From NCBI GenBank assembly GCA_947462875.1, contig CANHQJ010000003.1:62001-126000 (forward strand): a DNA stretch of 64,000 nt. Direction: 5' to 3'. A program made the translations under genes and the position numbers. The notes below the pieces were generated by a model. The model worked only from the letters and a program-made list of their open reading frames with translations, made no database searches and had not been told where the DNA came from. Of the stretch, positions 56,587 to 61,637 are shown piece after piece (within the stretch, counting starts at the first letter, position 1; every line of letters starts with the position of its first letter). This DNA comes from Verrucomicrobiia bacterium. GTDB taxonomy: Bacteria > Verrucomicrobiota > Verrucomicrobiia > Verrucomicrobiales > Akkermansiaceae.

Positions 56587-59367
56587 ATGAAACACTCCAT
56601 AAGCGCGCGCTTGAATGCCGATCTGCTCGACGAAATGTATGCCCGTTGGAGCGCCAACCCCGATTCCGTGGATGCCACCTGGGCGGTGTTTTTTGAAGGT
56701 TTTTCGTTAGGAGTGGCGCAACCGCCGAGCCGCGGCGCGCAGGCGAACGCCGCCACCGGCACCCCCGGCACCGACCAATTGGCACCGCAAGGCGAGCCGG
56801 ACTTCCGCGCGAAAGTCACGAGCATCGTGGAAAACTACCGCCGTCTCGGCCACACCCAGGCGCACATCAATCCATTGGCGGACAAGCCGGAAACCAATCC
56901 ACGCCTGACGGCGGCGGCACTCGGATTTTCCGAGGCCGATATGGACAAGGAAGCCGCCTCCGCCTTTTTCCGCAGCGGCGAGCGCATGAAGCTGCGCGAT
57001 TTTTTCCGTGTCATGGAGGAAACGTATGCCGGCTCGATCGGCTTCGAGTTCATGCACATTCACAACACCGCGATCCGACACTGGGTGCGTGAACGCATCG
57101 AAAACCGCCCGCGCCGCGCACCGGAAACCCGCGAGCAGCGCGTGAAGTCGCTGCAATGGCTGATGGAGGCGGAAATTTTCGAAACCTTCCTCGGCAAAAA
57201 ATTCATCGGGGAAAAACGTTTCTCCATGGAAGGTGGCGAAGGGGCGATGATCGTGCTCAACGCCATCCTTGAATCCTCGCTGGCCTCCGGAGTGCAGGAA
57301 ATCGAGATGGGCATGGCACACCGCGGCCGCCTCAATGTGCTGGCGAATTTCGTGCAGAAATCGCTGACCACCATTTTATACGAATTCACGCCGAATTATG
57401 AGCCCGATCTGGTTGCCGGCGATGGCGATGTGAAATACCACCTCGGCTATGAAAGCATGCGCGATGTGAGCGGCGGCCAGGTGCGCGTCAGCCTCGCCGC
57501 GAATCCGAGTCACCTGGAGGCGGTGAATCCCGTCGTCGAGGGCAAGGCCCGCGCCCGCCAGCGCCTGCTCGGCGATGACGGCCACATCACCGACCGCAAG
57601 CGCGTTCTCCCCATCCTGCTGCACGGCGATGCCGCCTTTGCCGGACAAGGCTCCGTCGCGGAGGTCATCAACCTTTCCCAGCTCCCCGGCTACCGCACCG
57701 GCGGCACGATCCATTTGGTGATCAACAACCAGATCGGCTTCACCACCATGCCCGCCGATGCCCGTTCCTCGGCCTACGCCACGGACATTGCCAAGATGAT
57801 CGAGGCTCCCATCCTTCACGTCAACGGCGAGCGCCCCGAGGAACTCTGGTGGGCCGCCCAGTTTGCGCTCGATTTCCGCCAGCAGTTCAGCCGCGATGTG
57901 GTGATCGACATGTACTGCTACCGTCGTCAGGGTCACAATGAGACCGACCAGGCCGCCTTCACCGCGCCGCTCATCGCCAAGTCCATCGCCTCCCGCGAGC
58001 CGATCAACTACCTTTACAAAAAGGAACTCATCGCCAATGGCACCCTCACGCAAGAGGAAGCGGATGCCATCGAAAAAGCCATCTGGGACAAACTGGAAGC
58101 CGGCTACCAGAGAATGGTGGAGCTCCAGGAAAAAGGCGACCGCACCGCCTTCAGCGGCTCAACAGCGATCGAGCAGATCCCCTACCACCATGCGCCAGTC
58201 GCCACCGGCGTGGAAGCCACCACCCTTTCCCACATCGGCCGCGTGCTCACCACCGTGCCGGAAACCTTCCACCTGCATCCTACGCTGGAAAAACGCTTCA
58301 TCCCGCGCCGCAAGGAGGCCATGGAAAAAGGGCAGAACATCGACTGGGCCCTCGCCGAGTCGCTTGCCTGGGGCAGCTTGTTGTTGGAGGGCAATGCCGT
58401 GCGTTTGTCCGGCCAGGACTGCCGCCGCGGCACCTTCAGCCAACGCCATGCCGTTTTCTACGATTACGAAAACCGCGAGCGGTACATCCCGCTGCAAAAT
58501 CTCGGTGAAAACCAAAGCCGCTTCTGCGTTTACAATTCGCTGCTCTCGGAATTCGCCGTGCTCGGCTTCGACTACGGCTACTCGCTCGGCGCACCGAACA
58601 TGCTGACCATGTGGGAAGCCCAGTTCGGCGATTTCTCGAACGGCGCGCAGGTCATCATCGATCAATTCATCGCCTCCGCCGAATCGAAGTGGCAGACCCC
58701 GTCCGACATCGTCCTCCTCCTGCCCCACGGCTACGAAGGCCAGGGCCCCGAGCACTCCAGCGCCCGTCTCGAGCGCTTCTTGCAGCTCTGTGCCGATGAC
58801 AACATGATCGTCGGAAATTTCACCACGCCCGCCCAGTATTTCCACGCGCTGCGCCGTCAGAAGCGCCGTGAGTTCCGCAAGCCGCTCATCCTGATGACGC
58901 CGAAAAGCCTGCTCACCCGCGCGGAGGCCGTCTCGCGCATGGAGGATTTCCTCCCCGGCACCTGCTTCCAGGAAATCCTGCCGGACACGCTAGCCCACCA
59001 GACGCCCGCCGCCATCCAGCGCATCGTTTTCTGCTCCGGCAAGGTGTTTTATGATCTGGAGGCCTATCGCAAGGAGCACAACATCACCGATACGGCATTG
59101 ATCCGCGTGGAGCAGCTCTACCCCTTCCATCACGAGCTCGCCGCCCTGTTTGTCAGCGAGTTCCGCAATGCCCGCACTTTTGTCTGGTGCCAGGAGGAAC
59201 CCGAAAACATGGGTGCCTGGACCTACATCGCACCACGCCTGCGCAAGGTCGTGGGCAAAGATCTCCTCTATGCCGGTCGCGAGGAAGCCGCCAGCCCCGC
59301 CGCGGGCTCCAAGGCCATGCACTACCGCGAAACCAAAGCCTTGCTCAAAGCCGCCTTCTCTCTCTAA
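56587..59367 (+). CDS. sucA: 2-oxoglutarate dehydrogenase E1 component
   Basis: A 926-residue thiamine-diphosphate enzyme. The N-terminus ([31 protein letters not shown]) is the SucA type that contacts E2. The central part shows [31 protein letters not shown] and [15 protein letters not shown]; the pyrimidine-binding domain shows [20 protein letters not shown]. It decarboxylates 2-oxoglutarate in the TCA cycle. No Shine-Dalgarno sequence is visible (GTTCTGTTATC-ATG). The E2 gene follows after 29 bp; the E3 gene is not in the window. Confidence 0.97.
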
Positions 59368-59396: not shown

Positions 59397-60542
59397 ATGT
59401 CCCTCGATATCAAAGTTCCCGCCTTCGGAGAGTCCATCACCTCTGCCAACGTCGCCCGCTGGCACAAAGCCGACGGCAGCACCGTGCGCAAGGGCGAGAC
59501 CATCGTCACCTTCGAGACCGATAAGGTTTCCTCCGAGCTCGAGTCTCCCGCCGATGGCGTGCTGACCATCATCGTCGCCGAGGGCACGGAAGTCGCGATC
59601 GGTGCCGTGATTGCCTCACTCGCAGAAGGCGCCGCCCAACCAGCCGCTCCCGCAGCTGCGCCGGCTCCCGCGCCAGCAGCCGCTCCCGCGCCGGCTCCTG
59701 CTCCCGTTGCGGCGCCCGCTCCCACTCCAGCTGCCGCACCCGCACCGGCACCAGTTGCCGCATTTGCTCCGGTGGCTGCACCTACTACGATCGTAGTAGC
59801 AGCCCCGGCCGCCGAGGCATCGGCCGCCCCCGCCGTCAGCGATGGCCGCACGACCCGCAAGAAAATGTCGATGCTGCGCCGCAAGATCGCCAATCACCTG
59901 GTAAACGCGCAACAAACCGCCGCCATCCTCACCACCTTCAACGAGGTGGACATGACCGCCGTCATGAACCTGCGCAAATCCGTGCAGGACGATTTCTTGA
60001 AAAAACACGGCGTCAAGCTGGGCTTCATGTCCTTCTTCGTCAAAGCCGTCACCCAGGCCCTCAAGGACGTGCCGCAAATCAACGCGATGATCGATGGCAC
60101 TGACATCATCGAAAACCATTTCTACGACATCGGCGTGGCGATCGGCACGGAAAAAGGCCTCATCGTTCCGGTGCTGCGCGATTGCGATCAGAAAAGCTTC
60201 GCCCGCGTGGAGCAGGACATCCTCGATTACGCCGCCAAGGCGCGCGAGGGCAAGATCTCCATGGAAGACCTGCAGGGCGGCGTGTTCACGATCTCGAACG
60301 GCGGCGTTTACGGCTCGCTGCTCAGCACCCCCATCCTCAATCCGCCCCAAAGCGGCATCCTCGGCATGCACACCATCCAACAGCGCCCTGTCGCCGTGGA
60401 TGGCAAAGTGGAGATCCGCCCGATGATGTATCTGGCACTGAGCTACGACCACCGCCTCGTCGATGGCAAAGAAGCCGTGACCTTCCTCATCCGCATCAAG
60501 GACTCCCTGGAGAATCCGACGCGCATGTTGCTGGAAATGTGA
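59397..60542 (+). CDS. sucB: 2-oxoglutarate dehydrogenase E2 (dihydrolipoyl succinyltransferase) lacking the E3-binding domain
   Basis: A 381-residue protein. The lipoyl domain (1-76) carries Lys43 ([12 protein letters not shown]). A long Ala/Pro linker (about 77-150) leads straight into the catalytic domain (about 155-381), with His352 and Asp356 ([12 protein letters not shown]) and [24 protein letters not shown]. The sequence is closely similar to E. coli SucB in both domains, but the peripheral-subunit-binding domain that normally lies between them and holds E3 (pattern SPA-R-L...G-G-GR-T-DV) is missing. The linker encodes a perfect 18-bp DNA palindrome. The start at 59397 is clear. Confidence 0.95.
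59782..59799. repeat. Perfect 18-bp palindrome in sucB (related to the ACTAS-N7-STAGT dyad)
   Basis: CTACTACGATCGTAGTAG is fully self-complementary. It encodes Thr-Thr-Ile-Val-Val in the Pro/Ala linker with codons (ACT, GTA, GTA) unlike the rest of the linker, and shares ATCGTAG with the menA and alaS dyads. Confidence 0.7.
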
Positions 60543-60704: not shown

Positions 60705-61637
60705 ATGCATCCACCGAACTCCGAATCTCCCAACGTCGATTCCATTCTTACCATCTGTCTCTTTGCCTCCTTTAGCGATGGCGAAAAATGCGAGCGCGAG
60801 CGCGAGCAAGTGACGCGCATGGCCGAGGAGCTGGGTTCCGCAGACATCGCCGCGCTATCGCGGCAGATCTTGATGGGGAAGCTGTCGCTCTCTGATGCCT
60901 GCGCCGCGCTGCAAACGAAACAGGAAAAAATGCTGGCCTATGAAATGGCGCGGGCGGTGTGTGAAGCGGGAGGATCCATCTCTGCCGATGAGCAGACATT
61001 TCTCACGGAATTGCGCGGGCACTTGGCGCTGGCGGCGGCGGAGGCGAGCTCGATCGATCGTGAGGTGGATAAGATCTCTGCCGCGCCGCTCATTTCCAGC
61101 CTGCCTGAGCTGACTGCGCCCGATAACGGCAGCATGATTTTGAAGTATGCCATTCTCAACGGAGCGCTCGAGCTTCTCCCCCAAACGCTGGCCACCGTGG
61201 CGATCATCCCGTTGCAAATGAAGATGGTCTATCGCATCGGCAAGTCGCACGGCGTGGAGCTGGGCACGAGCAACATCAAGGATTTTCTCGCCACGGCAGG
61301 CATCGGCATCGGCTCGCAGGTGTTGGAGGGATTTGCGCGCAAAATGATGAGCGGGCTCGGGAAAAAATATATCGGCAAAATGGCAGGCCGCATCGCGAAT
61401 CAGGCCACGGGCTCGGCCTTTTCCTTTGCCTCCACGTATGCCATCGGTCAACTGGCGGAACGTTACTACGGCAATGGCGGACGGCTCCCGACTACGGAAG
61501 TGAAAACGCTTGTGACCACGCTCACGGAGGAAGGAAAAAATCTCTACACCCGCTATGCGCCCGAGATCCAGCAACGCGCCAGCACGCTGGATGCGGCATC
61601 GGTGCTCTCGCTCGTGCGCGGGAAGTCAACCGTGTGA
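60705..61637 (+). CDS. TerB-like/DUF697-like membrane-associated protein
   Basis: A 310-residue protein. Residues 15-120 are a helical, charged region resembling TerB/DnaJ-associated domains (LTICLFASFSDGEKCEREREQVTRMAEELG... ISADEQTFLTELRGHLAL). Residues about 145-250 (MILKYAILNGALELLPQTLATVAIIPLQMKMVYRIGKSHGVEL... GRIANQATGSAFSFASTYAIGQLAERYYGNGG) match the Gly/Ala-rich membrane-interacting pattern of DUF697/YcjF proteins. The function is unknown; envelope stress is possible. The gene ends 11 bp from the convergent murG gene. Confidence 0.65.
   Translation: MHPPNSESPNVDSILTICLFASFSDGEKCEREREQVTRMAEELGSADIAALSRQILMGKLSLSDACAALQTKQEKMLAYEMARAVCEAGGSISADEQTFLTELRGHLALAAAEASSIDREVDKISAAPLISSLPELTAPDNGSMILKYAILNGALELLPQTLATVAIIPLQMKMVYRIGKSHGVELGTSNIKDFLATAGIGIGSQVLEGFARKMMSGLGKKYIGKMAGRIANQATGSAFSFASTYAIGQLAERYYGNGGRLPTTEVKTLVTTLTEEGKNLYTRYAPEIQQRASTLDAASVLSLVRGKSTV

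Follow-up and report, generated by a model that had tools for sequence, protein, structure and literature searches.

Absence and recurrent loss of the peripheral subunit-binding domain in 2-oxoglutarate dehydrogenase E2 proteins of Verrucomicrobiia

In a stretch of 64,000 nucleotides from a Verrucomicrobiia genome (the window), the gene for the E2 protein of 2-oxoglutarate dehydrogenase (E2o) raises the question whether a bacterial complex of this type may lack the peripheral subunit-binding domain (PSBD), whether such a lack is confined to one genome, and how dihydrolipoyl dehydrogenase (E3) would then be used. A preliminary description of the locus had proposed a SucB-like protein with intact lipoyl and catalytic domains, in which the PSBD is replaced by an Ala/Pro linker, and had considered an extra domain on E3. 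It had suggested that E3 may make contact elsewhere, may be freely supplied, or may belong to a less tightly built complex in this lineage. In passages of a paper from 2023 (PMC9974300), the PSBD is described as a domain that prokaryotic E2o have preserved and eukaryotic E2o have lost, the latter consisting of a lipoyl domain, an unstructured Pro/Ala linker and the core; MRPS36 is described there as replacing the PSBD in eukaryotes and is proposed as the mitochondrial tether. The E2o layout without PSBD has so far been described as a hallmark of mitochondria.

The gene, sucB, is an open reading frame on the plus strand that begins with ATG at 59397, ends at 60542 and specifies a PSBD-less E2o of 381 amino acids according to ORF, Pfam, NCBIfam, and AlphaFold2 analyses. 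It lies 29 bases downstream of sucA (56587..59367, plus strand), which encodes the E1 component (E1o) of 926 amino acids as judged by Pfam and NCBIfam. In SucB, Pfam detected the lipoyl domain at residues 4-75 (59406..59621, plus strand; 61.5 bits) and the catalytic (2-oxoacid_dh core) domain at residues 151-379 (59847..60533, plus strand; 278 bits). They are separated by the Ala/Pro linker at the usual place of the PSBD, residues 76-150 (59622..59846, plus strand), which is predicted to be unstructured; by our own boundaries this linker has 74 residues, 74% of them Ala or Pro. Lys43 (59523-59525), which occupies the usual lipoylation site, is invariant across 85 aligned E2o without PSBD, the selection of which is described below. 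NCBIfam assigned the protein at equivalog level to SucB (TIGR01347, 497 bits against a cut-off of 378.65), far above its score as E2 of pyruvate dehydrogenase (E2p); the two domains are intact and SucB-like, as originally proposed. Over its full length, the window protein matched E2o chains of the PDB best, including the eukaryotic entries 6h05 and 7uol. By sequence family the protein is SucB, but it is without the PSBD feature. The gene downstream of sucB (60705-61637, 310 amino acids) has no NCBIfam match and shows a weak match to DUF533 below the cut-off.

The absence of the PSBD was examined in several ways. Pfam gave no match to E3_binding (PF02817) in the window SucB at E values up to 10. 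When the source genome (3.95 Mb in 39 contigs, 97.7% complete) was searched in six frames with PF02817, two matches over the cut-off were obtained, both in other E2 genes and none at sucB. A frameshifted PSBD was not detected around sucB either, our own PSBD profile giving 0.1 bits over six frames. AlphaFold2, supplied with the alignment of 85 PSBD-less E2o, predicted neither helix nor strand between residues 78 and 151, with block pLDDT values of 42-64 for residues 81-150. As a control, the PSBD-bearing E2o of a member of the same family, G012, was modeled and yielded helices at residues 123-132 and 150-157 with block pLDDT values of 79-86. As a positive control for Pfam, E3_binding was seen in all of the 40 PSBD-bearing E2o tested, out of 62 available. 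The absence of the PSBD from the window SucB is confirmed by these analyses, and the observation made in the preliminary description is correct; Pfam, the six-frame search and AlphaFold2 agree on it, and the hidden binding-domain fold that had been considered there is not shown by AlphaFold2 in the linker. That the linker conceals a degenerate or refolded PSBD with retained E3 binding is very unlikely for the window, where it lacks a profile signal in any frame and predicted secondary structure and consists largely of Ala and Pro, although PSBD-like remnants recognized by eye in two other families, f21 (a shortened stretch, two sequences) and f12 (the end of the domain, 10 of 11 sequences), would be in keeping with it.

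The DNA of the linker is GC-rich and repetitive, which could favor a sequencing or assembly error deleting the PSBD in a single genome. Such an error is extremely improbable, since the six-frame searches were empty and the related genomes, which are separate assemblies, show the same state. All nine E2o found in the genus of the window are without PSBD (a tenth genome, G007, gave no E2o), which makes misassembly in one genome unlikely. Among 38 genomes comprising the window's own and related ones, E2o were detected at high identity in 34, the exceptions being G007, G011, G027, and G029. The PSBD is missing in 31 of these 34 E2o and present in three (G012, G024, and G036). The alternative that resequencing would restore the missing segment, raised in the preliminary description, is answered by these relatives.

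To cover the class, 188 genomes were drawn, in which 124 places scored above 370 bits with the SucB model; these and the relatives amounted to 150 E2o, a sample skewed towards relatives of the window and taken in many cases from draft genomes of tens to hundreds of contigs. The PSBD profile was built from PSBD-bearing E2o, from which two spurious seeds (G185 and G136) were removed; the two proteins still score as PSBD-bearing. With this profile, 62 of the 150 E2o reached at least 25.7 bits and all others at most 2.2 bits, with nothing in between. The high scores are partly obtained by construction, because the profile was made from PSBD-bearing sequences, and Pfam scans served as the independent check. 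Three E2o without lipoyl domain (G148, G171, and G203), which lack it because they are located at contig ends, were omitted, and the 12 sequences with remnants (both of f21, 10 of 11 of f12) were counted as PSBD-less. Applying these rules, 85 of the 147 complete E2o of the class and the relatives are without PSBD and 62 possess it. The proportion of PSBD-less E2o per family is 35/36 in f1, the family of the window, 1/3 in f2, 2/2 in f3, 5/5 in f4, 3/3 in f6, 1/1 in f8, 11/11 in f12, 3/3 in f19, 2/2 in f21, 4/4 in f23, 7/7 in f31, 1/1 in f33, 3/3 in f41, 4/4 in f45, 1/1 in f51, and 2/2 in f53. For 25 further families, only PSBD-bearing E2o were found.

In the Pfam scans, lipoyl and catalytic domains were present in all 85 PSBD-less E2o. 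E3_binding could match at most two of them at an E value of 10, because it is absent from the 25 commonest families of that scan, the smallest of which has two members. Six-frame scoring of the PSBD-less E2o revealed no frameshifted PSBD, the best value being 6.2 bits versus a minimum of 24.9 bits for PSBD-bearing ones. The median linker comprises 66 residues without and 104 residues with PSBD, a difference of 38 residues that corresponds to about the size of the domain. Loss of the PSBD is recurrent in the class and not a local accident. Two lipoyl domains were noted in 13 PSBD-less E2o of f1 (L023, L024, L025, L026, L027, L028, L030, L035, L040, L042, L121, L128, and L160) and, by the same search, in none of the 62 PSBD-bearing E2o. 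In genus g3 of f1, 8 of 20 genomes have no SucB match at an E value of 1e-80, and the 2-oxoglutarate dehydrogenase complex itself is therefore patchy in this genus.

Phylogenetic analyses of the E2o revealed that the PSBD changed its state several times in the class. A quick tree of the 150 E2o cores, which still included the contig-end sequences G148, G171, and G203 labeled as PSBD-less, required nine changes. In a more careful tree of 55 chosen sequences and outgroups, seven changes were counted (six to nine over the bootstraps), and none of 200 bootstraps yielded a tree with a single change. Support is poor for many of the inner branches, stars being assigned to 19 of 52 in the careful tree, and the starred branches alone force three changes in either tree. 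A single clade of all 28 PSBD-less sequences was rejected (AU test, p 0.0003); upon exclusion of f12, f21, and f41, a choice made after a tree had been seen, rejection was borderline (p 0.0465). The bacterial loss, traced here in trees without eukaryotic E2o, appears to be separate from the eukaryotic one.

By eye, linkers of 10 of the 11 E2o of f12 (L103, L105-L108, L110, L111, L114, L117, and L119) were seen to contain a scrap resembling the end of a PSBD, and a shortened PSBD-like stretch is present in both linkers of f21 (L093 and L098). These linkers look as if the PSBD were being eroded. In the linker of G056 (L102:47-1246, minus strand), the PSBD is replaced by an odd stretch that resembles an inserted repeat.

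Change in the opposite direction is suggested by the E2o of G012 (L043:1498-2751, minus strand), which by profile models and AlphaFold2 is PSBD-bearing inside the otherwise PSBD-less f1. Its PSBD scored 75.8 bits with a model of E2p PSBDs and 46.8 bits with the E2o model. In leave-one-out controls, all 20 E2p PSBDs favored the E2p model by at least 20 bits (the PSBD of the G155 E2p was unreadable and omitted from the model), and 41 of 42 E2o PSBDs favored the E2o model by at least 23 bits, the remaining one, G202, by 3 bits. Among further held-out E2o PSBDs, those of G024 and G036 favored E2p by about 7 bits, those of G049 and G215 favored neither model, and the other six favored E2o by at least 20 bits. 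Judged by these scores and controls, the PSBD of G012 was most likely taken from E2p and probably represents a regain; those of G024 and G036 may have the same source.

How a complex with such an E2o might recruit E3 depends on the other components encoded in the genome. The lpd gene (L164, 5079-6461, minus strand) specifies a standard dihydrolipoyl dehydrogenase of 460 amino acids. An extra domain on E3 is therefore not supported. The interpretation in the preliminary description holds in part, the absence of the PSBD being real. Only one clear lpd was found; a second protein with Pyr_redox_dim, C9, is specified by a frame of 544 amino acids (54 bits). Two other E2 proteins carry a PSBD. One (L165) is of the pyruvate dehydrogenase type, with 424 bits in TIGR01349, just below the cut-off of 445, and the other (L166) adjoins genes for E1 alpha and beta. 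E3 thus still has PSBD partners. A PSBD supplied by a separate protein was rejected as well, both PF02817 proteins over the cut-off being these E2s. With two PSBD-bearing E2s and one clear lpd, the E2o could be part of a mixed assembly, in which the PSBD of E2p brings E3, somewhat like in the hybrid complex of Corynebacterium, for which a passage of PMC8146983 reports that OdhA shares E2p. For the window this appears quite unlikely, because its E2o, unlike OdhA, comes with a lipoyl domain and a core of its own and is accompanied by a separate E1o.

In E1o, Pfam detected an N-terminal segment (PF16078, residues 10-40, 56614..56706, plus strand) that is the counterpart of the proposed dual-binding segment of human E1o. 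Comparison of 21 loci, one of which (G160) gave no E1o, showed that this segment is kept in 20 of 20 E1o, in PSBD-less and PSBD-bearing lineages alike. Being present also in PSBD-bearing lineages, the segment does not indicate a special role for E3 here. Relocation of the PSBD into E1o was considered and rejected, the N-termini being alike in both groups. Loci with lpd close to sucAB (L175, L176, L183, L184, and L187) were encountered, an arrangement not seen in the window; confirmed lpd genes near sucAB belong to PSBD-less (G050 and G089) and PSBD-bearing genomes (G045, G120, and G208), and the position of lpd therefore does not track the state of the PSBD. In G109, a candidate frame near sucAB falls into the same BLAST group as lpd.

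A bacterial adaptor protein could tether E3 to the E2o core in the way proposed for MRPS36/KGD4 in mitochondria, the precedent being provided by parts of PMC9974300. In the source genome, no match to this family (PF10937) exceeded the cut-off, two matches having E values of 1.57 and 2.46, in a search that covered this genome and the controls of the tool and was run without a eukaryotic positive control. Among the 21 loci, no common gene near sucAB tracks the state of the PSBD. A possible docking site would be a KPDLSVV-like motif. When the genus of the window and g3 are set aside, f1-f6 comprise 25 PSBD-less linkers, 10 of which carry the motif (for example L025, L027, and L030), and it occurs in none of the 62 PSBD-bearing linkers. 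The motif is, however, missing from the genus of the window (0/9), g3 (0/12), and the other PSBD-less families (0/39), and as a pattern picked after the data had been seen it is a weak lead. Taken with the KGD4 search, which gave nothing over the cut-off, and the loci, this renders an adaptor rather unlikely, but a far-diverged one encoded elsewhere in the genome is possible.

The reading preferred here, with a probability of roughly 0.6, is that of an intact-looking E2o from which the PSBD was deleted in the lineage, functioning in a mitochondria-like complex with E3 either weakly held by E1o or transient and untethered. Such a complex would operate as its mitochondrial counterpart does, by means of a lipoyl domain, a flexible linker and a core. 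The N-terminal segment of E1o would attach E1o to the E2o core, and E3, common to other complexes, would reoxidize the lipoyl arm; it may be held weakly by the same segment or may act transiently without tether. In the sections of PMC8146983 dealing with the human enzyme, binding of E1o to E2o is strong, binding of E2o to E3 was not detected, and contacts with both E2o and E3 are proposed for the N-terminal segment of E1o, a dual role labeled there as a hypothesis. These human data and the retention of the segment in the E1o of the window favor a complex held together by E1o and E2o. It counts against the reading that the proposed tether of mitochondria is MRPS36 (PMC9974300), for which this genome has no match over the cut-off.

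Compared to known systems, the protein resembles bacterial SucB/OdhB (TIGR01347, NF004309) in its equivalog-level match over the whole protein and in the order sucA-sucB, but differs by the lack of the PSBD. With mitochondrial E2o (DLST) it shares lipoyl domain, linker, core and the missing PSBD, but it is bacterial, and no MRPS36/KGD4 match over the cut-off was found in its genome. OdhA/Kgd of Actinobacteria is likewise a 2-oxoglutarate dehydrogenase with a shared E3, and its own E2 part is reported in PMC8146983 to depend on another E2 for lipoyl groups; there, E1 and E2 are fused, rely on E2p and lack an own lipoyl domain, whereas the window has separate genes and an E2o with its own lipoyl domain. 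E2p, too, consists of lipoyl domain, linker and core, and that of the same genome retains its PSBD.

For a large part of one class, the data contradict the preservation of the PSBD in prokaryotic E2o as stated in the passages of PMC9974300. In the open literature, no prior report of a PSBD-less bacterial E2o was found, although an earlier description is possible. Beyond the preliminary description, the analysis shows that the loss recurs within the class, that some families retain remnants of the domain and that it was probably regained in at least one case. On balance it seems probable that 2-oxoglutarate dehydrogenase complexes in which E3 is used with neither PSBD nor MRPS36 arose repeatedly in bacteria, be it through the N-terminus of E1o, through an adaptor or with no tether, and that the PSBD from pyruvate dehydrogenase was regrafted in at least one relative. 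If this is true, the mitochondrial layout of the complex is not unique. The need for E3 tethering in 2-oxoglutarate dehydrogenase could be examined directly in these bacteria, in a setting where no MRPS36 was found.

The search was extended to named genomes, from which the best 80 E2o loci were evaluated, a selection leaning towards the query. The PSBD profile gave more than 20 bits for 75 of these 80 loci, 10.3 bits for one from Bacteroidales (L279), in which a PSBD is recognizable by eye, and values below zero for four. Among the 75 of the best 80 loci that lie outside Verrucomicrobiota, 73 scored above 20 bits and one is clearly without PSBD. This locus, L244, one of the four below zero, originates from a metagenome-assembled genome of Rhodobacteraceae; no PSBD is visible by eye in its linker, and two lipoyl domains are present. 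The other three belong to Verrucomicrobiota, namely L211 from Roseibacillus, L266 from Chthoniobacter, and L210 from an uncultured member of Verrucomicrobia, the core of which is 90% identical to that of G214 from f1.
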